64,000 bases of DNA from Rhodoferax ferrireducens (GTDB lineage Bacteria; Pseudomonadota; Gammaproteobacteria; Burkholderiales; Burkholderiaceae_C): the NCBI RefSeq assembly GCF_003347515.1, contig NZ_QEII01000298.1, forward strand, positions 186,001 through 250,000, written 5' to 3'. The position numbers were made by a program, and so were the translations under genes. The notes beneath the pieces are model-generated. The model was not told the origin of the DNA and did not search any database. It worked only from the letters and a program-made list of their open reading frames with translations. Each line of letters begins with the position of its first letter. The first letter of the stretch is position 1. This document shows positions 47,825-61,390 of the stretch, piece by piece.

Positions 47825-48022
47825 ATGCATCACTCCGCCATCACGGGTCAGCGTCTGGTTGCCATCGTGTTGCTGGGCTGCGTGCTGTTCAACTACCCGG
47901 TGCTCTCCCTCTTCAGCAAGCCGGGTGCCTTGTTCGGAATTCCGCTGCTGTACTTGTATATCTTCGTGGTGTGGGCCTCGCTGATTGCGCTGACTGCTTA
48001 TGTGATCGAGCGGCTGGACTGA
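47825..48022 (+). CDS. Small membrane protein coupled to the sensor kinase
   Basis: A 65-residue protein with two membrane helices (LVAIVLLGCVLFNYPVLSLF, about residues 11-30, and PLLYLYIFVVWASLIALTAY, about 40-59). ATG at 47825 has GGGGAG 9 bases upstream. Its stop overlaps the start of the SSS-histidine kinase (TGATG). Its size and layout mirror the small DUF4212/DUF485 subunits of sodium:solute symporters. It is therefore probably the equivalent small subunit for the symporter domain of the sensor, which is inference. Confidence 0.8.
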   Translation: MHHSAITGQRLVAIVLLGCVLFNYPVLSLFSKPGALFGIPLLYLYIFVVWASLIALTAYVIERLD

Positions 48023-50808
48023 TGCTGCAAGGCTGGGTCATCATCAGCGTGTCGTTTGCCTACCTGGGCTTGCTGTTTGGCATTGCCTATTACGGCGACA
48101 AGCGCGCCGATGCCGGACGCTCCATCATCGCCAACCCGGCCATTTACGCCTTGTCGCTGGCGGTTTACTGCACCACCTGGACCTTCTATGGCAGTGTCGG
48201 GCGCGCCGCATCGGCGGGCATTGGTTTTCTGCCCATCTACCTGGGCCCCACGCTGGTGGCGGGGCTGTGGTGGTTTGTGATGCTCAAGATCATTCGCATC
48301 AGCAAGGCCCACCGCATCACCTCGATCGCCGACTTCGTGGCCTCGCGCTACGGCAAAAGCCAGTTGCTGGGCGGCTTGGTGACGGTGATTGCGGTGGTCG
48401 GGGTGGTGCCCTATATCTCGCTGCAACTCAAGGCGGTTTCCAACAGCTTCACGATACTGACCCACTACCCCGACATCGTCATGCCCGCCAAGGCCGCGAC
48501 ACAAGCCCTGTGGCAGGACAGCGCGCTGTACATCGCCATGACGCTGGCCGCGTTCACGGTGTTGTTTGGCACCCGCCATCTGGACGCCACCGAGCGCCAT
48601 GAAGGCATGGTGGCGGCGATTGCATTCGAGTCGGTGATCAAGTTGCTGGCTTTCCTGGCGGTCGGCCTGTTTGTCACCTTTGGCCTGTTCAACGGCATGG
48701 GCGATATCTTTGCGCGCGCCGAGTTGGTGCCCAAACTCAAGGCGCTGATGACGGTCGCCGATTCTGGCAGCAGCTATGGCAGCTGGTGGTCGCTCACCCT
48801 TCTCTCCATGCTCTCGGTCATGCTGCTGCCCCGGCAATTCCAGATCGCGGTCGTGGAAAACGTCAATGAGCAGCACTTGCGCAAAGCGGTCTGGCTGTTC
48901 CCGCTGTACCTGTTGCTGATCAACATCTTCGTGCTGCCAATTGCCCTGGGCGGCATGCTGCATTTCTCCACGGGCCTGGTGGACGCGGATACTTTTGTGC
49001 TGACCTTGCCGATGTCCGAGCGGCACGAAGCACTGACCCTGTTGGTGTTCATCGGTGGTTTGTCGGCGGCCACCGGCATGGTCATTGTGGAGACCATTGC
49101 GCTGTCCACCATGATCTGCAACGACCTGGTGATGCCACTGGCCCTGCGCATGAAGGCCTTGCGCCTGAACGAGCGACACGACCTGTCCGGCTTGCTGCTG
49201 GGCATACGCCGATGGGCCATCGTGGCCATCCTGATGCTGGGCTACATCTACTTCCGGGCCGCGGGCGAGGCCTATGCGCTGGTCGGTATCGGCCTGATCT
49301 CGTTCGCGGCGGTGGCCCAGTTTGCGCCCGCCATTTTTGGCGGCATTTACTGGAAGGGCGGCACCCGCAACGGCGCCATCGCGGGGCTGCTGGGCGGCTT
49401 CGCGGTGTGGGGCTACACGCTGTTGCTGCCCTCGTTCGCCAAGTCGGGCTGGCTGTCGTCAGAGTTTCTGCGCGAGGGTCTGTTCGGGCTGACACTGCTG
49501 CGCCCGCAACAACTGTTTGGTCTGACCGGGATGGACGAGATCTCACACAGCCTGTTCTGGAGCTTGCTGGCCAACCTGGGGTTCTACCTGGGCGTGTCGC
49601 TCACCAGTCGGCCCAGCGTCCAGGAAACGCGGCAAGCCACCGCCTTTGTGGATGTCTTTCGCCATACCGTCGGCACGGCAGGGGGTTCGCGCCTGTGGCG
49701 CGGCAGTGCCCAGGTGCAAGACCTGCTGCCGCTGATTGGCCGCTTCCTCGGGCCGGTGCGGGCGCAGGAGGCTTTCCTGGGTTTTGCCCGGGGCCGCGGC
49801 CTCGCGTCCATCGAGGAATTGAAAGCCGATGCGGAGCTGGTGCACTACGCCGAGACGCTGCTGGCCGGCGCCATTGGCGGCGCCTCCGCGCGGGCCATGG
49901 TGGCCTCGGTGGTGCAAGAGGAGCCGCTGAGCATTGACGAGGTGATGAGCATCCTGGACGAGGCCTCCCAGGTGCGCGCCTACTCCCGTGAACTCGAACT
50001 CAAGTCGCAGGAACTGGAAGCCGCCACCGCCGAACTGCGGGCCGCCAATGAGCGTCTGAAGGAACTCGACCGCCTGAAGGATGACTTCATGTCCACCGTG
50101 ACCCATGAACTGCGCACGCCACTCACCTCGATTCGTGCCTTCTCGGAAATCCTGCTGGAAGATCCGAAGACCGGATTGGCCGAGCGCAAGAAGTTCCTGG
50201 GCATCATCGTCAAGGAAACCGAGCGCCTCACCCGCCTGATCAACCAGGTGCTGGACATGGCCAAGATCGAATCAGGCAACGCCGAATGGCACACCGCCGA
50301 GCTGGATTTGCGCGCAGTGATCGAGGAGTCGGTGGCGGCCACGTCCTCGCTGTTCAACGACCGGCATGTGACGCTGACCCAGGACCTGGCGGCCGGCACG
50401 CCCTTGATCCTGGCCGACCGGGACCGCCTGATTCAGGTGATGCTCAACCTGTTGTCCAACGCGGTCAAATTCTGCGATCCGGCCCGAGGCCTGGTGCATG
50501 TGAGCTTGCGGCAGGAACGCGAGGGCCTGCGCGTGGATGTGCGCGACAACGGCAGCGGCATCAGCGCGGCCGATCAAAAGATCATCTTCGAGCGCTTTCG
50601 CCAGGTCGGCAACACCATGACCGACAAGCCCCAGGGCACCGGCCTGGGACTGCCCATCAGCCGGCACATCGTCGAACGTTTTGGCGGGCGGCTGTGGGTG
50701 CAAAGCGAGCCCGGCCACGGGGCCACGTTCTCGTTTACACTGCCTTTTAACCAGGGCACCAGCGCCCCGGCCGCAGCGCCTCACCCGCCAGATAGGACCA
50801 GCCCATGA
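48022..50808 (+). CDS. Sensor histidine kinase with sodium:solute symporter domain (CrbS/MxtR-like)
   Basis: A membrane sensor that joins a transporter-like input to a kinase. The 928-residue protein has an SSS/PutP-like region of about 13 helices (residues 1-500, with ADAGRSIIANPAIYALSLAV and YCTTWTFYGSVGRAASAGI). A linker and coiled coil (about 630-685) follow, then a HisKA domain with the phospho-acceptor in VTHELRTPLTSIRAF (about 692-706), and a HATPase with LLSNAVKFCD, VRDNGSGIS and GTGLGLPISRHIVERFGG. CbrA- and CrbS/MxtR-type kinases of this design control carbon use, the latter acetate metabolism. It overlaps the response regulator by ATGA. Confidence 0.92.
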   Translation: MLQGWVIISVSFAYLGLLFGIAYYGDKRADAGRSIIANPAIYALSLAVYCTTWTFYGSVGRAASAGIGFLPIYLGPTLVAGLWWFVMLKIIRISKAHRITSIADFVASRYGKSQLLGGLVTVIAVVGVVPYISLQLKAVSNSFTILTHYPDIVMPAKAATQALWQDSALYIAMTLAAFTVLFGTRHLDATERHEGMVAAIAFESVIKLLAFLAVGLFVTFGLFNGMGDIFARAELVPKLKALMTVADSGSSYGSWWSLTLLSMLSVMLLPRQFQIAVVENVNEQHLRKAVWLFPLYLLLINIFVLPIALGGMLHFSTGLVDADTFVLTLPMSERHEALTLLVFIGGLSAATGMVIVETIALSTMICNDLVMPLALRMKALRLNERHDLSGLLLGIRRWAIVAILMLGYIYFRAAGEAYALVGIGLISFAAVAQFAPAIFGGIYWKGGTRNGAIAGLLGGFAVWGYTLLLPSFAKSGWLSSEFLREGLFGLTLLRPQQLFGLTGMDEISHSLFWSLLANLGFYLGVSLTSRPSVQETRQATAFVDVFRHTVGTAGGSRLWRGSAQVQDLLPLIGRFLGPVRAQEAFLGFARGRGLASIEELKADAELVHYAETLLAGAIGGASARAMVASVVQEEPLSIDEVMSILDEASQVRAYSRELELKSQELEAATAELRAANERLKELDRLKDDFMSTVTHELRTPLTSIRAFSEILLEDPKTGLAERKKFLGIIVKETERLTRLINQVLDMAKIESGNAEWHTAELDLRAVIEESVAATSSLFNDRHVTLTQDLAAGTPLILADRDRLIQVMLNLLSNAVKFCDPARGLVHVSLRQEREGLRVDVRDNGSGISAADQKIIFERFRQVGNTMTDKPQGTGLGLPISRHIVERFGGRLWVQSEPGHGATFSFTLPFNQGTSAPAAAPHPPDRTSP

Positions 50809-51182
50809 GCAAACGCATCCTGATTGCGGACGATGAACCGAACATCGTGATCTCGCTCGAGTTTCTGATGAAACGCGAAGGCTTCGATGTGCAGGTGGCG
50901 ATGGATGGCGAGGCCGCCTTGCGGGCCATCGCCACGCAACTGCCGGACCTGATCCTGTTGGACATCATGCTGCCGAAGAAGGACGGGTTTGAGGTTTGCC
51001 AGCAAATCCGCGCCAACCCGGCGTGGCAGCAGCTCAAGGTCGTGATGCTCACGGCCAAGGGGCGCGACACCGAGGTCAGCAAGGGGCTCGCACTGGGTGC
51101 CGATGCATACATGACCAAGCCCTTTTCCACCCGCGACCTGGTGGCCCAGGTCCGCCAACTGCTCGGCCTCACCGCGCCATAG
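50805..51182 (+). CDS. Single-domain response regulator
   Basis: A 125-residue CheY-like receiver with no output domain. It has the acidic pair DDEPN (about residues 9-13), the phospho-acceptor Asp in LILLDIMLPKKDGFE (about 53), VVMLTAKG (Thr) and the Lys in MTKPFSTRDL (about 105). It is translationally coupled to the SSS-histidine kinase. CrbR/ErdR partners of related kinases carry a LuxR-type output. Here the output is missing, so the signal must go to a partner protein, perhaps the neighbouring exonuclease fusion. Confidence 0.92.
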   Translation: MSKRILIADDEPNIVISLEFLMKREGFDVQVAMDGEAALRAIATQLPDLILLDIMLPKKDGFEVCQQIRANPAWQQLKVVMLTAKGRDTEVSKGLALGADAYMTKPFSTRDLVAQVRQLLGLTAP

Positions 51183-51219: not shown

Positions 51220-53409
51220 ATGAACCACCGGATCAGGCTCGCAGCCGGACTCGGCATTCTGTATGGCTTGCTGGCCGTGCTCTTCGGCCTTCTCGGCCTG
51301 GTCCTGTGGGGCGACATGCAGGAGGCCGAGCGCCAGGCCGTGCTGGCCATCATGCGGCCGCGCTACGCCATGGCGGTGGTCATCATCCTGCTGGCCTGGT
51401 TCGGGCTGGGGCTGCTGGTCTGGGTTCTGTACCGGGCCTATGCGCTGGCCCCTGTGCGCCTGCGCGAACAGGCGCTGGTGATGGTCAACGCCAACCCCTC
51501 GCTGCGCCTGCAGGAGCTGGGGGCGCCCGAGATCCGCACGCTGGCGCAGGTGGTCAATTCACTGGCTGACCAGCGCGAATCATTGCAGCGCGATGTGGAG
51601 CAGCGGATTCTTGAGGCCAAGGCCTCCGTCGAAGAAGAAAAAAACCGCCTGGCCGCCTTGATGTCGGAACTCACACAAAGCGTGGTCGTGTGCAACCTGG
51701 ATGGCCGCATCCTGCTCTACAACAACCGCGCCCGGCTGCAGTTCCAGGTGCTGGGGCCGGGGGCGCTCGGCGGCAGCGCGGCCCTGATCGGGCTGGGTCG
51801 CTCCATTTTTGCCATGATGGAGCGCAACCTCATCACGCATGCGCTGGAGACCGTGCAGTACCGTCTGCAGCGCGGCAGCGAACAACCCTCCACCAATTTC
51901 GTCACCAGCACGCGCGCCGGGCAGTTGATACGCGTGCAAATGGCGCCGGTGTTCGGCAACGCCGGGCGGCAGAACGCCCCCCCCGCCGGCGCCGCCACCG
52001 ATCGCGTCATCAGCGGCTATGTGCTCATGCTCGACAACATCACCCGCAATGTGGAAACACAAAACCAGCGGGACTCGCTGCTGCAGGCGCTCACCGAGGG
52101 CAGCCGTGCGTCACTGGGCAATGTGCGTGCGGCGGCGGAGAACCTGCTGCAATACCCGGACATGGAGCACGAACAGCGCGAGCGCTTCGTCGGGGTGATC
52201 CGCGATGAAGTGGCGCTGCTGAGCCAGCGCATCAACCACGCCAGCAGCGAGTTCGCCGACACGCTCAAGGCGCGCTGGCCGCTGGAGGACATGCATGGAT
52301 CGGACCTGCTGCAGGCGGCACAACAGCGCATTGCGCAAAAGACCGGCCTCAGCGTCACCGTTGAAGCCATCGCCAGCGATTTGTGGATCAGGGTGGACAG
52401 CTTCTCGCTGCTGCAGGGCCTGTGCCACCTCGCCGCCCGGCTTCAGGAGGCGTGTGATGTGGACGCCGTGGCCCTGCGTCTGCAGGCGTCCGGTCGGCTG
52501 GCGGCGCTGGACCTGCTGTGGTCGGGTCCGGCCCTGGAACCGGCGCTGCTGGCGAGCTGGGAACAGTCCCCCATGCGCGCCGGCGACGAAGGCACGCCCC
52601 TGACCCTGCGCGAGGTGATCGAACGCCACGGCGGTGAACTCTGGCAACAGCACGACCAGGACAGGCCGCTGTCCCTGATCCGCATGCTGCTGCCCACCAC
52701 GGTGGCGCAAGAGGCCGCCGATCCGGCCGTGTGGCTGCGCAACGAGAGCCGCCCTGAGTACTACGACTTCGACCTGTTCCAGCAAACCGAGGAAACACGG
52801 GCGCTGGACGAGCGCCTGCTGACGCAACTCAGCTACACCGTGTTCGACACCGAAACCACCGGACTGGAGCCCTCGCAGGGCGATGAGATCATCCAGATTG
52901 GCGCCACCCGCATCGTCAATGGCCGCCTGTTGCGAAACGAGACCATCGACCAGCTGATTGACCCCCGGCGGCGACTCAAGCCCGAATCCATGGCCATCCA
53001 CGGCATCACCGACGACATGGTCCGGGGGCAGCCCACGATTGACCAGGTCTTGCCCACGTTTCATGAGTTCTGCGAAGACACGGTGCTGGTGGCGCACAAC
53101 GCCGCGTTTGACATGCGCTTCCTGCAACTCAAGGAAACGTCAACCGGCCTCGTGTTTTCGCATCCGGTGCTCGACACGCTGCTGCTGTCTGCGGTGATTC
53201 ACCCCAACCAGGAGTCACACCGGCTGGAGGCCATTGCCGAGCGCCTGGGCGTCAGTGTGATCGGCCGCCACACGGCCCTGGGCGACGCCATCGTCACCGG
53301 CGAGATATTCCTCAGGATGATTCCCTTGCTGGCGGAGCAAAACATCCATACCCTGGGGCAGGCGCGGGCCGCCGCCGCACGCACTTACTACGCGCGCACC
53401 ACTTATTGA
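51220..53409 (+). CDS. Membrane histidine-kinase-like sensor fused to a DnaQ-type 3'-5' exonuclease
   Basis: A 729-residue fusion. Residues 1-70 hold two membrane helices (LGILYGLLAVLFGLLGLVLW and YAMAVVIILLAWFGLGLLVW). A HAMP-like coiled coil follows, then a PAS-like domain (LAALMSELTQSVVVCNLDGRILLYNNRA split near residues 145-172) and a degenerate histidine kinase. The usual phospho-His site is replaced (EGSRASLGNVRAAAENLL) and the ATP-binding motifs are eroded. The C-terminal 190 residues are an intact DEDDh exonuclease: FDTETTG (about 543), HNAAFDMRFL, and HTALGDA with the His and Asp. It may degrade or sense nucleic acid ends at the membrane, or act as a nucleotide-controlled regulator; both are speculation. 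It belongs to the acetate-sensing operon. Confidence 0.85.
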   Translation: MNHRIRLAAGLGILYGLLAVLFGLLGLVLWGDMQEAERQAVLAIMRPRYAMAVVIILLAWFGLGLLVWVLYRAYALAPVRLREQALVMVNANPSLRLQELGAPEIRTLAQVVNSLADQRESLQRDVEQRILEAKASVEEEKNRLAALMSELTQSVVVCNLDGRILLYNNRARLQFQVLGPGALGGSAALIGLGRSIFAMMERNLITHALETVQYRLQRGSEQPSTNFVTSTRAGQLIRVQMAPVFGNAGRQNAPPAGAATDRVISGYVLMLDNITRNVETQNQRDSLLQALTEGSRASLGNVRAAAENLLQYPDMEHEQRERFVGVIRDEVALLSQRINHASSEFADTLKARWPLEDMHGSDLLQAAQQRIAQKTGLSVTVEAIASDLWIRVDSFSLLQGLCHLAARLQEACDVDAVALRLQASGRLAALDLLWSGPALEPALLASWEQSPMRAGDEGTPLTLREVIERHGGELWQQHDQDRPLSLIRMLLPTTVAQEAADPAVWLRNESRPEYYDFDLFQQTEETRALDERLLTQLSYTVFDTETTGLEPSQGDEIIQIGATRIVNGRLLRNETIDQLIDPRRRLKPESMAIHGITDDMVRGQPTIDQVLPTFHEFCEDTVLVAHNAAFDMRFLQLKETSTGLVFSHPVLDTLLLSAVIHPNQESHRLEAIAERLGVSVIGRHTALGDAIVTGEIFLRMIPLLAEQNIHTLGQARAAAARTYYARTTY

Positions 53410-53423
53410 ACCCGCACCGCGCC

Positions 53424-54884
53424 ATGGAACAGACGCCCTTCCCGACTCCGCGCAGCAATGTCCTGGCCATGCACAGCCCCTTGAGCCAGTTGCCCAAGCG
53501 CGCGCCGGTGACGGTCATGCTGGGCACGCCACTGCGCGAAGCGCTGGCCATCATGGACCGCCTGCGCATCGGCTCCATCATCGTGGTGGACGACCATGGC
53601 CGCCTCCCCCTGGGCATTTTCACGCTGCGCGACGTGTTGCACCGCGTGGCACTGCCGCAGGTCAGTCTGGAGGAGCCGATTGCCAGCGTGATGACCGGTG
53701 GCGTCATCACGGTAAAGCCGCACACCACCGCCTATGAGGCCGCCGTCATCATGGCGCGCCGTGGGCTGCGCCATCTGCTGGTGGTCGACGAGGCCGCTCA
53801 CCTGGTCTCCATCGTGTCACAAAACGACTTGTATGCCTTGCAACGCACCAGCCTCAAGGACGTCAGCAACGACATCCGCCAGGCGCGCGACCTGCCTACC
53901 CTGCAGGCCTGCGCCAAGGACATCCAGCGCGTGGCGCTGGCCTCGCTGACGCAGGGCATGGCGGCGGCGCAGCTGACGCAATTCATCTCCACCCTGAATG
54001 ATTTGCTGACCTTGCGCGTGATCGAACTCACCCATGACGAGTTCGACCTGCCGGAGATCAAATGGTGCTGGATCGCGCTGGGCTCGGAAGGCCGCTACGA
54101 ACAAACGCTGTGCACCGATCAGGACAACGGCATCATCTTCGAATCCGAGAACGCCGCCGCCACCGACACGCTGCGCCAGCGTTTCCTGCCGTTTGCGCAA
54201 GCGGTCAACCAGAAGCTCGATGCCTGCGGTTTTCCGCTCTGCAAGGGCGGCATCATGGCGGGCAACCCGCAGTGGTGCCTGTCCCTGCCCGAGTGGCGCG
54301 CCCGCTTCAGTGACTGGATTGAACACCCGCAACCCAAGGCCTTGCTCAACGCAGCGATATTTTTTGACTTCCGCCCGCTCTATGGTTTTGACAGCCTGAG
54401 CGACGCGCTGCGCGACTGGGTGCTCGACGCTACCCGCAACGCGCAGCTGTTTCTGCGCCTGATGGCCGAGAACGCGCTGCAATGCGCACCACCGCTGGGC
54501 CTGATTCGCGATTTCGTGTTCGATGGCAACAAGGATTTCCCCAACACCATCGACCTCAAGATGTATGGCTCGCGGCCTTTCGTGGACGCCGCGCGCCTGC
54601 TCTCGCTCACGCACGGCGTGCGCCAGACCAGCACGGCGCAACGCCTGCTGGGCGCCTCCAGGTCGGTGAACTTTGGCGGCGATGACGTCGCCGCCATGGT
54701 GGACAGCTTCTACTACATCCAGTTGCTGCGCTTGCGCCACCAGCATCAGGTGCTGGGCGAACACGGCGGCGGCAACCGCATCAACCCGGACCTGCTGAAT
54801 GAACTGGATCGCCACATCCTCAAGGAAGCCTTCAAACAGGCCCGTAAACTGCAGAGCCGGCTCAGGCTTGACTACCGACTGTAG
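53424..54884 (+). CDS. CBS-domain protein with DUF294 nucleotidyltransferase-like domain (no cNMP domain)
   Basis: A 486-residue cytoplasmic protein. Two CBS repeats (about residues 25-140, including MLGTPLREALAIMDRLRIGS and VIMARRGLRHLLVVDEA) bind adenine nucleotides in related proteins. The DUF294 part has the nucleotidyltransferase motif GSEGRYEQTLCTDQDNG (about 217-233) and a C-terminal helical domain (RPFVDAARLLSLTHGVRQTS). It resembles GlnD-type transferases. ATG at 53424 is preferred over a TTG at 53406. It follows the exonuclease fusion closely and precedes the ActP genes. CBS-DUF294 and DnaQ genes next to actP are also known in Pseudomonas, but their role there is unclear. Confidence 0.85.
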   Translation: MEQTPFPTPRSNVLAMHSPLSQLPKRAPVTVMLGTPLREALAIMDRLRIGSIIVVDDHGRLPLGIFTLRDVLHRVALPQVSLEEPIASVMTGGVITVKPHTTAYEAAVIMARRGLRHLLVVDEAAHLVSIVSQNDLYALQRTSLKDVSNDIRQARDLPTLQACAKDIQRVALASLTQGMAAAQLTQFISTLNDLLTLRVIELTHDEFDLPEIKWCWIALGSEGRYEQTLCTDQDNGIIFESENAAATDTLRQRFLPFAQAVNQKLDACGFPLCKGGIMAGNPQWCLSLPEWRARFSDWIEHPQPKALLNAAIFFDFRPLYGFDSLSDALRDWVLDATRNAQLFLRLMAENALQCAPPLGLIRDFVFDGNKDFPNTIDLKMYGSRPFVDAARLLSLTHGVRQTSTAQRLLGASRSVNFGGDDVAAMVDSFYYIQLLRLRHQHQVLGEHGGGNRINPDLLNELDRHILKEAFKQARKLQSRLRLDYRL

Positions 54885-55026
54885 CGCGGCGTGTCTTTGG
54901 CCGGAGCGCAAACACAGCATTCAGTTGCAACGTAAGGGACTGGTCAGACCTCGTGTGCAAGATCAGCCCAATGTGCCGACAACACATTCCCTGTATTCCG
55001 TGCAAACCAAACCCGAGGAGACCCAC

Positions 55027-55335
55027 ATGATTGATCCGTTGGTCAACAAAATTCAAACCCACCCAAAGTACCTGGAACTTCGGAAAAAACGTAACGCGTT
55101 TGGCTGGGGCCTGACATTGCTGATGATGGTCGTGTATTACGGCTACATCGCACTGATCGCGTTCAACAAACCCTTTCTGGCCCAGCCGATTGGCGCGGGC
55201 GTGACCTCGCTGGGGATTCCCATCGGCATGGGCGTCATCGTGTTCACCATTGTGATCACGGGCATCTATGTGCGTCGCGCCAACAGCGAGTTTGACGATC
55301 TGACCGCTGCCATTTTGAAAGACGTCTCCAAATGA
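55027..55335 (+). CDS. DUF485 small subunit of the acetate symporter (YjcH-like)
   Basis: A 102-residue inner-membrane protein with two helices ([18 protein letters not shown], about residues 28-45, and [19 protein letters not shown], about 62-80) and the DUF485 pattern [16 protein letters not shown] with [19 protein letters not shown] at 55027 has GAGGAG upstream. Its end overlaps actP by four bases. YjcH-ActP pairing is the usual arrangement. The 142 bases before it show no gene. Confidence 0.93.
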
Positions 55336-57059
55336 AAACAGCAAAAATAACTTTTGTCGCATTGCTGGCACTGCTGGCGGCAGGCTCAGCACTGGCCGCC
55401 GGGGCGGACCTCGGGCAAGTCGAGAAACAACCCACCAACTGGGTTGCCATCAGCATGTTTGCCGGCTTCGTCATCATGACCCTGTTCATTACCAAATGGG
55501 CAGCCGCCAAGACCAAATCCGCCGCTGACTTCTACACCGGCGGTGGCGGCATCACCGGTTTTCAGAACGGCCTGGCGATTGCGGGCGACTACATGTCGGC
55601 CGCGTCTTTTCTGGGTATTTCCGCAGCCGTGATGGCCTCCGGCTATGACGGCTTGATCTACTCGATCGGCTTTCTGGTCGGCTGGCCCGTCATCACGTTT
55701 TTGATGGCCGAGCGCCTGCGCAACCTCGGAAAATTCACATTTGCCGACGTCGCCGGTTACCGCTTCCAGCAAAAACCGATTCGCATTTTTGCGGCTTCCG
55801 GCACGCTGGTGGTCGTGGCTTTCTACCTGATCGCCCAAATGGTGGGTGCGGGTGCACTGATCAAACTGCTGTTCGGCCTGGACTACTGGCTGGCCGTGGT
55901 GATCGTCGGTGCGCTGATGATGATTTATGTGCTGTTCGGCGGCATGACGGCGACCACCTGGGTGCAGATCATCAAGGCCTGTTTGCTGCTGGCCGGTGTC
56001 ACCTTCATGGCCTTCATGGTCATGTCGAACTACGGCTTCAGCTTTGAAGCGCTGTTTGCCGCAGGCGTCAAGGTGAAGACCCAGCTGGCCATTAACGGTG
56101 GTAAGACCGAGGTCGACGCCGCCGCCATTGGGCTGGCCATCATGGGCCCCGGCGGTTTTGTGAAGGATCCGATTTCGGCGATCTCCTTCGGCATGGCACT
56201 GATGTTCGGTACCGCCGGTTTGCCCCACATCCTGATGCGCTTTTTCACGGTGCCGGATGCCAAGCAAGCGCGTAAATCCGTGCTGTGGGCGACCACCTGG
56301 ATTGGCTACTTCTATGTGCTGATTTTCATCATCGGCTTCGGCGCCATCACCCTGGTGTTGACCAACCCTGAGTTTGCGGATACCGCCAAGGGCATCATCA
56401 AGGGCGGCGGCGGCTCGGCCAATATGGCAGCTGTGCTGGTAGCCAAGGCTGTCGGCGGCAATGTCTTCTTCGGCTTTATCTCCGCAGTCGCTTTTGCCAC
56501 GATTCTGGCGGTGGTGGCCGGTCTGACCCTGTCAGGCGCTTCTGCTGTGTCGCATGACATCTACGCCACCGTGATCAAAAAGGGCAAGGCTGACAGCGCT
56601 TCCGAACTCAAGGTGTCGCGCATCACGACACTGGTTCTCGGTGTGGTTGCTGTTGTTCTCGGCATCGCGTTCGAAAAGCAGAACATTGCGTTCATGGTGT
56701 CCCTGGCCTTCGCCATTGCCGCCTCGGCCAACTTCCCGGTGCTGTTCATGTCGGTGCTCTGGAAAGACTGCACGACCAAGGGCGCGGTGATTGGCGGCTT
56801 CCTCGGTCTGTTCTCATCCGTGGCGCTGACCATCGTGTCGCCCTCGGTCTGGGAAGCCACGCTGGGTTACCCCAAGGGTTCGGCGCTGTTCCCTTACACC
56901 TCGCCGGCTCTGTTCTCCATGACCATCGGCTTTGTCGGCATCTGGCTGTTCTCCATTCTGGATCGCAGCCCCAATGCAGCCAAGGAACGTGCCGCATTCC
57001 CGGCGCAGCAAGTGCGCTCGGAAACCGGCTACGGCGCATCGGGCGCTTCCGGCCACTGA
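55332..57059 (+). CDS. actP: Cation/acetate symporter
   Basis: An Na+-coupled acetate permease of the SSS family. The 575-residue protein has a cleavable-looking N-terminal hydrophobic segment ([19 protein letters not shown]), as in E. coli ActP, and the family motifs [36 protein letters not shown] and [17 protein letters not shown]. The length matches the standard (549 in E. coli) and there is no inserted loop, unlike the symporter at 44274. It ends the operon that begins at 47825 and is followed by a terminator. Confidence 0.94.
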
Positions 57060-58910: not shown

Positions 58911-59567
58911 TCAGTCCCCACGCAAGTGCCGCAGTTTGATGAAGGCCAGCGCCGCCATCACCGCATCGTTCAGCGCATCGTGGGCGTCACGCAAGGGCAG
59001 GCCCAGATCGATCATCAGGGTGGCAAAACGAAGATCAATGTCAACATTGGCCTGCTGCTGGTAGGCGGGGAGCTGCCTGAATTTGAAGTCGTAATACAGG
59101 GCGGACACCTCGATTTTGGCTTGCGGCAGGCCCTGACCCAGCATGGGGAAGAGCGCCCGATTCAGCATGGCCAAGTCAAACTCCAGGTAATAGCCCACCA
59201 GTGGCCGGCTGCCGATGAAATGCATCAGGCGCTTCATCGCTTCATCCATCGGCAAGCCTTGGGCCACGTCGCGTTCGCGCAGACGATGAATGCGCACGCT
59301 CTCGGCCGAGATCCCGCGCTCCGGACGCACCAGCAACTCGAGCCGATCGCTGGTCATGATGCGGTTGCCGACGATGCGCACAGCACCGATCGAAATGATT
59401 TCATCGGTGCGCACATTCAGGCCAGTGGTCTCGCAGTCCAGCGCCACCCATTCGTTGGCGGGCGGCGGGTCGAACATGAAGCGAAACGCCGGGTCACCCA
59501 GGTGGTACAGCAGCCACTCGCGCTTGAGCGCGGCCCACCAGCGCGAGGGCAAGAGCGGAACGCTCAC
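58911..59567 (-). CDS. 3'-5' exonuclease (DnaQ/DEDDh family)
   Basis: A 218-residue exonuclease with WVALDCETTGLNVRTDEI (DxE, about residue 43-45), SVRIHRLRERDVAQG, LVGYYLEFDLAMLNRAL (motif II Asp) and DAHDALNDAVMAALAF (His and Asp of motif III). About 35 residues precede the catalytic domain. It overlaps the CBS-DUF294 gene upstream by four bases. Together they repeat, in separated form, the exonuclease and DUF294 pair at 51220-54884. The role in carbon metabolism or nucleotide sensing is not known. Confidence 0.9.
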   Translation of the reverse strand: MSVPLLPSRWWAALKREWLLYHLGDPAFRFMFDPPPANEWVALDCETTGLNVRTDEIISIGAVRIVGNRIMTSDRLELLVRPERGISAESVRIHRLRERDVAQGLPMDEAMKRLMHFIGSRPLVGYYLEFDLAMLNRALFPMLGQGLPQAKIEVSALYYDFKFRQLPAYQQQANVDIDLRFATLMIDLGLPLRDAHDALNDAVMAALAFIKLRHLRGD

Positions 59568-61390
59568 GACACCGCTTCCAGATGGAAGCGGTGTCGCAGC
59601 AGGGTTTTGAAACGCTTGACCACGCCCAGCGTGTCCTTGAGCAGGTCACGGTCCAGGCTGCTGAGCCGGCTCACGTCGATGGCGCCGCTCACAGCCTTGC
59701 CGGTGGCCAGCTCGGCCAGCCCGACCTTGAGCTTGAGGCCCATGAAGAAGTGCAGGCTGTCCGTCAGGTCCGTGCCTATGGCTGCCTCCAGCTTGCCGGC
59801 GGCCACCAGCGCCGCGATGCGCCCAGTGGTGCTGGTCTCCATCACGCGGTGCGCCAGCGCCAGACTGCGCACGCCGTGCACCAGCGGGAAAATACCTTCC
59901 TTTTTGAGATTGAGCGGCTGGTCGGCGTCGCCCCGGCCCAGCAGCCGGTTCCACCAGCCATAGCTGCTACCAAAGGAATCAATAGCCGCCGCAAACCGGC
60001 TCAGCATGGCGTCGCTGTCGGTTGCCAGGGCCATCAGGCCGCGCCGGACCGCGTCCAGCAAATGAGCATCGCCACAGACCGTGTGCGCGTCCATGAAAAT
60101 CGCCAGATTCATCAGGCTGTCGCCATCCGGCAGGAGCAACCATTGCCGCGTCATCTGGCCAAATTCACTCGCGCTCTTGCGCCACTGCGGGTTGCTGACC
60201 ATGATGTGGCCCGGGCACTCCGGGTAGCCAAAATCCTTGAGGGCGCTGGAAAAACGCTGGCAGATCGCCTCCAGATCGTCGGGGGGCGTGTAGCCGTCGC
60301 GCAGGATCAGGGCGTTGTCCTGGTCGGTCTTGAGCAATTGCTCGCCGCGGCCCTCGCTGCCCATCACAAACAGGCAGCTGTTGACCACCAGCCCGGCCGG
60401 CGCGATCAATTGCCAGGCACGTTCGAACAGCCGGGCGTTGAGCTGCTGTACCAGCTTGGCGATCAGGTTGACGCGGGAACCGCTGCGGTACAGCAGCGTG
60501 ATCATGCGGGTGATCTGGGCCGCGGCCTGGCTCAGGCCAGCCAGGTCCTTGGCCTCCTCGATCTGCACCGTGATCAGGTGCGACTGGTTGGACAAGAAGC
60601 TGAACAGGTCCAGCGCTTCCAGGATGCCCACCACCGTGGCGCCTTCCACCACGACGACCCGGTGCACCCGGTGGCGCAGCATCACGGCCATGGCGTCGCC
60701 CAGCTGGTCGGCGCTCTGCACCTCGATCAATGAAAAATTGGCCAGTTCACCCACCGCCAGCTGGTTCAGCGGACGGCCGTCCAGGATGGCGCGCTGCAGG
60801 GCCGTAGCGGTAAAAATGCCCAGGCGGGCCGGCACGCTGCGCGTGTCACGCACCAGGACATTGGAGGTGCGCTCGGCTTGAAACAGTTTGACGACGGAAA
60901 GAATATCGGTGGTGGCATCGACAAAGTGGGCCGGCCGCAAAAAAGCCTCGTCCACCCGGGACAGGGTGAGCGACTGCAGCTCGTGCTGACTCTTGCGCTC
61001 GGACAGGGCGCTGAGCTTGTTGCTCAGATCCGAAAACAGCAGCGCACCAAAAGTGGCATTCGACGCAATCAGGTCGCTCACCGCCTGGCGCGCCAGCTGA
61101 TAGGCCACCACCTCCTCGGCCGCCACGAAGCGGCTGCTGACCCGGCCCGCCACCAGGCCCCGGCCATCAAAGCAGTCGTCCGGCCCGTAGGTGGTCGTCA
61201 CCTCGCTACCCTCCAGCTGGGTCACGTAGCCTTTGATGATGACAAAAAGATGAGTCGGCGCGATCCCCACGTCCAAAATCGTCTCGCCCTCGCGAAAATA
61301 AACGACGTCGACGCTGTCGCGCACCAGGCGCTGCTCGTCCTGATTCAGGCAGTCAAACGGGGAGGCGGAAAAATTAAAGGCATTGGGCAT
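59564..61390 (-). CDS. cNMP-binding, CBS and DUF294 nucleotidyltransferase-like protein
   Basis: A 608-residue cytoplasmic protein with a cyclic-nucleotide-binding-like domain (about residues 10-125: VVYFREGETILDVGIAPTH, FDGRGLVAGRVSS), two CBS repeats (about 150-280) and DUF294 with MGSEGRGEQLLKTDQDNAL (about 340-358). The C-terminal helical domain contains FPLVHGVRSLALAHRVMETS. It resembles the 53424 protein over its CBS and DUF294 parts and adds the cNMP domain. A short GCTAC...TAGC segment at 59966-59986 may be a decayed copy of the dispersed element. It overlaps the exonuclease gene by four bases. Confidence 0.88.
   Translation of the reverse strand: MPNAFNFSASPFDCLNQDEQRLVRDSVDVVYFREGETILDVGIAPTHLFVIIKGYVTQLEGSEVTTTYGPDDCFDGRGLVAGRVSSRFVAAEEVVAYQLARQAVSDLIASNATFGALLFSDLSNKLSALSERKSQHELQSLTLSRVDEAFLRPAHFVDATTDILSVVKLFQAERTSNVLVRDTRSVPARLGIFTATALQRAILDGRPLNQLAVGELANFSLIEVQSADQLGDAMAVMLRHRVHRVVVVEGATVVGILEALDLFSFLSNQSHLITVQIEEAKDLAGLSQAAAQITRMITLLYRSGSRVNLIAKLVQQLNARLFERAWQLIAPAGLVVNSCLFVMGSEGRGEQLLKTDQDNALILRDGYTPPDDLEAICQRFSSALKDFGYPECPGHIMVSNPQWRKSASEFGQMTRQWLLLPDGDSLMNLAIFMDAHTVCGDAHLLDAVRRGLMALATDSDAMLSRFAAAIDSFGSSYGWWNRLLGRGDADQPLNLKKEGIFPLVHGVRSLALAHRVMETSTTGRIAALVAAGKLEAAIGTDLTDSLHFFMGLKLKVGLAELATGKAVSGAIDVSRLSSLDRDLLKDTLGVVKRFKTLLRHRFHLEAVS

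Follow-up and report, generated by a model that had tools for sequence, protein, structure and literature searches.

A reading frame at positions 51220-53409 of the window (the whole 64,000-nucleotide stretch of Rhodoferax ferrireducens DNA analysed here) encodes a membrane-bound pseudo-histidine kinase joined to a DEDDh exonuclease. This fusion is conserved and real, and it is not an ordinary protein. Its parts are of known kinds; the new element is their combination, together with a tie to DUF294, a putative nucleotidyltransferase. We propose that the protein is a membrane-tethered 3'-5' exonuclease that would serve as effector of a monocarboxylate-sensing module, its sensor-kinase chassis having been turned into a regulatory scaffold. 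Based on sequence comparison and a structure model, we estimate the probability of this reading to be about 0.5. The tie to DUF294 and the acetate-type module are a better clue to function than control of the nuclease by a receiver protein.

The reading frame was confirmed at exactly 51220-53409 on the + strand (729 aa). Full-length homologues were present in named genome contigs (the best 80 of 488 related stretches, 53-85% identity), and a search of relatives gave a full-length homologue in 12 of 30 genomes, the window's own included, and a half-length fragment in a 13th. The window protein and 91 homologues (80 from the named contigs and 11 from the relatives search) make up an alignment of 92 rows; left out of it were one half-length fragment and the duplicate of the window's own gene. 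The exonuclease is the most conserved part, with 70 of 199 positions reaching at least 98%, and the membrane part is the least conserved (0 of 75).

An AlphaFold model of the protein (mean pLDDT 76, pTM 0.35) begins with two long helices, at 3-32 and 35-90, which are followed by a coiled helix at 103-152. A PAS-like domain comes next (154-273), then a DHp hairpin of two helices (275-349) and a CA-like domain (356-494), and the exonuclease occupies 530-729. Because of the pTM of 0.35, the relative placement of the domains in the model is not trusted, and the model is silent on their coupling. In Foldseek, the front part of the model matched WalK, VicK-like 4i5s, ThkA and DivL; matches of the back part were PolC and DnaQ. 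A PAS-DHp-CA fold was thus present (WalK 9a5d, E 4.5e-20; 4i5s, E 3.6e-15; DivL 4q20, E 4e-10).

The model and a hydropathy script agreed on two membrane helices joined by a short loop in residues 1-90 (51220-51489, + strand). Two hydrophobic segments were found in 89 of the 90 homologues measured, which bears out the membrane anchor proposed in the initial annotation of this DNA. The joining loop is only some 10-20 residues long and therefore leaves no space for a periplasmic sensor domain. Residues 103-273 (51526-52038, + strand) form the coiled helix and the PAS-like domain. With Pfam, RNase_T was the sole domain of the window protein above its cut-off (residues 541-697, E 3.6e-37, 128.9 bits versus 24); the PAS and kinase parts went undetected. 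Weak matches were obtained in relatives, namely PAS_4 in 11 and HisKA in 9 of 33 members (E up to 1), and PAS_9 lay barely above the cut-off in the Paracoccus denitrificans homologue. The PAS-like domain of the initial annotation is thus confirmed by its fold and by these weak matches. Other proteins also matched residues 53-155, and we discarded these matches as coiled-coil likeness; their source in the window's own genome is the membrane and coiled segment of another sensor kinase, NarX-like by our reading.

The kinase part (residues 275-494, 52042-52701, + strand) was recognised as a DHp/CA core by alignment, profile, AlphaFold and Foldseek. With a profile of residues 121-505, the VicK-like kinase 4i5s was matched at E 1.2e-9 and structures of the HK853 type at E 5e-5 to 5e-4, in a structure list that also contained some rows due to chance likeness to protein A helices. 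Alignment with 4i5s placed the phospho-acceptor His column at E293, which is Glu in 85, Asp in 5 and Gln in 2 of the 92 rows; here too the initial annotation, which had described an eroded kinase core devoid of the phospho-His, was right. The N-box Asn column (position 406) is occupied by S in 55, A in 11 and N in 7 of the 92 rows. The G1 Asp column is W434 (Trp in 91/92), and the G2 box glycines are absent. With the phospho-His and the N-box, G1 and G2 residues lost, kinase activity of the core is very unlikely. The four Alphaproteobacterial proteins aligned also have no His in the phospho-acceptor column; in two of them a His lies five residues past it, and we did not read this as a phospho-acceptor.

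The dead core is nevertheless well conserved. Its CA region has a mean top-residue frequency of 0.76, and R407, D431, W447 and R469 are found in all 92 rows. The core is therefore under constraint, and the invariant residues speak for a retained scaffold role as far as an alignment can tell. Residues about 278-498 matched the adjacent kinase in eight genomes of the relatives search (E 1e-12 to 5e-4). Descent of the core from the neighbouring CrbS-like kinase is one possible origin among others, since another kinase of the window's own genome equals it in a profile comparison (3.6e-6 versus 1.3e-5).

The core is followed by a linker motif recognised in the alignment, RPEYYDFDLF (residues 511-520, 52750-52779, + strand). 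It is invariant in 92/92 rows except at position 514, which is Y (88 rows) or F (4 rows). Its YDF core is retained in the four Alphaproteobacterial proteins aligned, and a YDF-like core occurs in remote homologues.

Pfam, structure matches and alignment assign residues from about 531 to 729 (52810-53409, + strand) to the DEDDh exonuclease. D543, E545, H626, N627, D631, H684 and D689 are present in 92/92 rows, including all catalytic residues of the D-E-D-H-D set. The active site is apparently intact, and 3'-5' exonuclease activity is predicted; the RNase_T match and the invariant residues support the earlier call of a complete DEDDh domain. Among the matches listed, the best families were of the PolC, DnaQ and DinG types, and the solved relatives were 2p1j (E 4e-33), 9qpc (Z 23.5) and 1j53 (Z 22.1). 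DEDDh enzymes include oligoribonuclease, and the domain could accordingly be a dinucleotide exonuclease, acting on pGpG or similar, that links acetate sensing to cyclic-di-GMP turnover. The cNMP-binding domains in two DUF294 partners would fit such a role. We consider it highly improbable: the family matches point elsewhere, and Pfam found no cyclic-di-GMP domain in seven neighbouring proteins. The Orn family was absent among the 25 of 39 NCBIfam matches and the 50 structure-match rows listed, which by itself says nothing against Orn membership.

In the window, the fusion lies in a row of genes on the + strand. A small membrane protein (47825-48022) precedes the kinase; it has no Pfam family, so that a DUF4212 label for it found no support in the window, and a similar small gene was present in 72 of 80 homologous loci. 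The sensor kinase (48022-50808) has a symporter-like membrane domain, HisKA (residues 686-752) and HATPase_c (799-910) and is without a C-terminal receiver domain. We take it to be of the CrbS type from its architecture. Its residues 8-473 matched a solved 'histidine kinase', 10ed_A (E 9e-76). A lone receiver of 125 aa (50805-51182) overlaps the end of the kinase gene; its D9, D10, D53 and K105 were present in 89/89 rows, and position 83 was T or S. Downstream of the fusion, Pfam identified a putative nucleotidyltransferase with the domains CBS-DUF294-DUF294_C (53472-54884) and a DUF485 protein of the YjcH type (55024-55335). Solved relatives of the former covered the CBS part only, among the matches listed. 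The cation/acetate symporter ActP follows (55332-57059; NF006903, 934.5 bits versus a cut-off of 750). At another place, the window's own genome (C303) also encodes a second, longer CrbS-like protein of about 1065 aa that is 64% identical over residues 3-640 (loci L213 and L220).

A second exonuclease-DUF294 pair was found about 5.5 kb from the fusion, on the - strand (58911-61390). It consists of a DEDDh-type exonuclease (58911-59567; PRK09145, 291.7 bits versus 189) and a DUF294 protein with cNMP-binding, CBS, DUF294 and DUF294_C domains (59564-61390); the end of the latter gene and the start of the exonuclease gene share 4 nt.

The module recurs in other genomes. A CrbS-like gene was located upstream of the fusion in 77 of the 80 homologous loci; a lone receiver lay at most 400 nt upstream in 74/80, and a receiver match was obtained in 79/80. 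CBS-DUF294 was directly downstream in 35 loci and anywhere in the stretch examined in 37, and ActP was seen in 4, figures to be read with the fact that many of the 80 loci end at contig ends. Plasmid pBB1 of Cupriavidus necator N-1 carries, consecutively, DUF485, ActP, a small gene, a CrbS-like kinase (1247 bits), receiver, fusion and CBS-DUF294. The fusion is thus adjoined by CBS-DUF294 and acetate symporter genes both in the window and in C. necator N-1. The order in Paracoccus denitrificans PD1222 is DUF294, small gene, CrbS-like kinase (1093 bits), receiver and fusion. Further arrangements were acs, symporter, DUF294, receiver and fusion (Marivivens); DUF485, acetate symporter, DUF294, receiver and fusion (P. 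yeei); and DUF294, receiver and a fusion split across two annotated genes (Paracoccus SMMA_5). The plasmid stretches of these last three contained neither an annotated kinase gene nor a CrbS-like match. In Neorhizobium (L248), the stretch examined contained symporter, DUF294 and fusion and gave no receiver match.

Kinase, receiver, fusion and DUF294 thus appear in changing company, and the receiver is a plausible candidate for the link between kinase and nuclease. The initial annotation had placed the nuclease under receiver control, and gene order renders this plausible: the receiver is close by in nearly all loci, and receiver-fusion pairs occur with no adjacent kinase in the three plasmid loci. 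Other observations count against it. Among 12 genomes with a short CrbS-like kinase, the fusion adjoins in 9 and a receiver without a fusion is found in 3. Conversely, no receiver match was detected in the flanks examined of the fusions L128 (5 kb upstream), L102, L103 and L248. The first copies of G097 and G228 lie beside divergent DUF485 and ActP genes, with no receiver match in the 1.5 kb examined. Variants L242 and L243 keep the membrane helices, PAS domain, linker and exonuclease and are devoid of the DHp/CA core, which is therefore dispensable in some proteins; L242 is still accompanied by a receiver. Together, the genomes with a receiver and no fusion, L242 and the fusions without a receiver match counter the idea of a receiver dedicated to the fusion, and we now regard it as one possible input. 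Loci L023, L031 and L098 have no CrbS-like kinase upstream, and L098 also has no receiver in 4.6 kb. Genomes L102 and L103 carry two fusion copies each, of which the copy closer to the window's adjoins divergent DUF485 and ActP genes.

These observations also bear on an alternative in which the kinase core would be no more than a vestigial spacer. In that case the exonuclease would simply be anchored and would sense through its PAS domain at most, and the receiver would serve the CrbS-like kinase only, replacing the receiver fused to CrbS/MxtR. MxtR/CrbS indeed has a C-terminal receiver according to the accessible part of PMC7918813, and the three short-kinase genomes, the fusions without a receiver match and the core-less variants all fit this explanation. 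It does not account for the many conserved positions of the dead core, some of them charged or Trp residues that are invariant, with the core missing in L242 and L243 only, nor for the adjacency of receiver and fusion at plasmid loci without a neighbouring kinase. We regard it as possible but somewhat unlikely.

Beta- and Alphaproteobacteria carry the fusion, as do several other families of the class. To judge from these sequences, the fusion is old and widespread, and its parts have stayed joined in two or more classes of proteobacteria. In the class sample, 15 of 229 genomes matched at E 1e-40 or better: 11 with a fusion that includes an exonuclease match (in two copies in three of these genomes), 2 with a fusion whose exonuclease is dead, 1 with a stand-alone exonuclease and 1 with an exonuclease-CBS-DUF294 fusion. 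For every one of the 11 live-fusion genomes, the exonuclease motifs were read in one or more copies. The order sample gave matches in 20 of 250 genomes at 1e-58, three of which (G319, G368 and G415) were contig-end fragments or part-length. Among 89 matching plasmid records, 20 covered at least 80% of the query, including plasmids of Paracoccus, Cupriavidus, Marivivens and Neorhizobium; where annotations were given, they read 'exonuclease domain-containing protein', '3'-5' exonuclease', 'DNA polymerase III subunit epsilon' or 'hypothetical protein'. L118 (662-2737) and L119 (6198-8246) retain the fusion and have lost the catalytic residues of the exonuclease. They belong, with L221 and L222, to one small order, whose four genomes match the profile in the front part only.

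The nearest homologues of the window protein come from Rhodoferax MAGs (78-85%). Rhodocyclaceae MAG proteins (67-71%) also resemble the window protein more closely than do the copies that the relatives search gave from its own genus (about 50-55%), a pattern suggestive of cassette transfer or of mixed binning. Hosts of homologues include Zoogloea, Thauera, Aromatoleum, Paracoccus and Cupriavidus, genera of wastewater treatment and denitrification.

The tie to DUF294 was analysed quantitatively, with the window's genome counted in both samples. In the class, strong DUF294 (E 1e-20 or better) was present in 11/11 live-fusion genomes versus 65/229 overall (Fisher p 5e-7, relatedness ignored). In the order sample, strong DUF294 was present in 18 of 20 matching genomes versus 98/230 (p 3e-5, again with relatedness ignored); the two matching genomes without strong DUF294 are 85% and 87% complete. 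None of the four genomes of the dead-exonuclease order had a strong DUF294 match, and two had weak matches only (E 3e-6 to 4e-6). Since these genomes form one clade, they represent one event. In three genomes (L121, L216 and L219) the exonuclease is fused directly to CBS-DUF294. Of the 30 DUF294 loci that scored best in the class, 23 also contained a DEDDh-type exonuclease reading frame, the window's own locus among them.

To place these exonucleases in a tree, we used a set of 30 loci, comprising 29 DUF294 loci and the window's second cassette; the window's first locus (L164) was left out beforehand. Exonuclease rows came from 22 loci and none from the other 8, the window's second exonuclease being among those without a row. 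All 22 DUF294-paired exonucleases fell in a branch of their own, which has a weak base and lies apart from the fusion branch and from the majority of the remaining DEDDh rows; 21 of them grouped at 100/98. The fusion exonucleases were likewise set apart from the other DEDDh rows in the class sample, with moderate support (85/88), in a tree whose bootstrap was not fully settled. Pairing in two branches of the tree, together with the direct fusions, indicates that DEDDh exonucleases and DUF294 nucleotidyltransferases keep company.

These results also bear on another alternative: a sensor kinase may have captured an exonuclease of DNA repair or proofreading, which would then have no particular connection with carbon metabolism. 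The closest solved relatives are indeed polymerase proofreading domains. Against this stand the separate position of the fusion exonucleases in the tree and the conserved set of neighbours, namely a CrbS-like kinase, a receiver, transporters or acs, and DUF294. We find such a capture very unlikely.

The effector reading can be phrased as a chain of steps. The CrbS-like kinase would sense monocarboxylate flux and phosphorylate the lone receiver. The state of the receiver, the PAS domain or both would alter the scaffold, which is presumed to be dimeric. This change might pass through the RPEYYDFDLF linker and so gate the exonuclease at the membrane. Finally, nuclease and DUF294 nucleotidyltransferase would act on a shared 3' end, of RNA type or of DNA, and carbon use would be adjusted. 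The receiver input and the substrate are the weakest steps. A more specific version, which we consider rather unlikely, makes the two enzymes a writer-eraser pair: DUF294 would add 3' nucleotides to an RNA such as tRNA or mRNA, or to a nucleotidylated protein, the tethered exonuclease would remove them, and the phospho-receiver, docked on the dead kinase scaffold, would set the balance according to acetate or pyruvate.

If receiver or PAS signals gate the exonuclease, this would be two-component signalling with a nuclease as its direct output; if the writer-eraser version holds, the output would edit nucleic-acid ends instead of transcription. The sensing of acetate-type nutrients may be linked in this way to the processing of RNA or DNA. 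The repeated pairing of DEDDh exonuclease and DUF294 provides a testable handle on both families, for which the literature search yielded no substrate, and on the unexplained pyruvate phenotype of Pseudomonas putida pp_0353 described below.

Each part of the module can be compared with a known system. WalK, the VicK-like PAS kinases and DivL, the last of which is itself a pseudo-kinase, have the same order of membrane anchor, PAS, DHp and CA as the fusion. The fusion differs from them in having neither a phospho-acceptor His nor ATP-binding motifs and in its exonuclease output. The proofreading domains of PolC and DnaQ (2p1j, 9qpc and 1j53) share the fold and the DEDDh residues of its exonuclease, which in the fusion stands outside any polymerase and is joined to a membrane sensor chassis. 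The arrangement of the window resembles CrbS/CrbR (MxtR/ErdR), in which a symporter-fused kinase lies beside acetate genes. Unlike CrbS/MxtR as described in the accessible text, the window kinase has no terminal receiver domain; the receiver is encoded by a gene of its own and has no output domain.

A search of the open-licence literature gave no account of the fusion or of exonuclease-DUF294 pairing, which is weak evidence of absence, and the CrbS-family literature searched did not mention 'exonuclease'. A close known counterpart is found in P. putida. According to the accessible part of PMC9927547, pp_0353 (RNase_T) and pp_0354 (CBS) form an operon that is a target of MxtR/ErdR, and ErdR binds the pp_0354 promoter. 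In the same text, pp_0353 is important for growth on pyruvate and growth on acetate is unimpaired in pp_0353 or pp_0354 mutants; a connection with mRNA decay is the authors' speculation. Homologues of the two genes adjoin actP and yjcH in Pseudomonas aeruginosa PAO1 and P. fluorescens NCTC10783 (PMC9927547, accessible part). Compared by description, pp_0353 has RNase_T only in that text, with no membrane, PAS or kinase part. What pp_0353/pp_0354, a pair within the regulon of the CrbS-type system, shares with the fusion and its CBS-DUF294 neighbour is the pairing of an exonuclease with a CBS protein.
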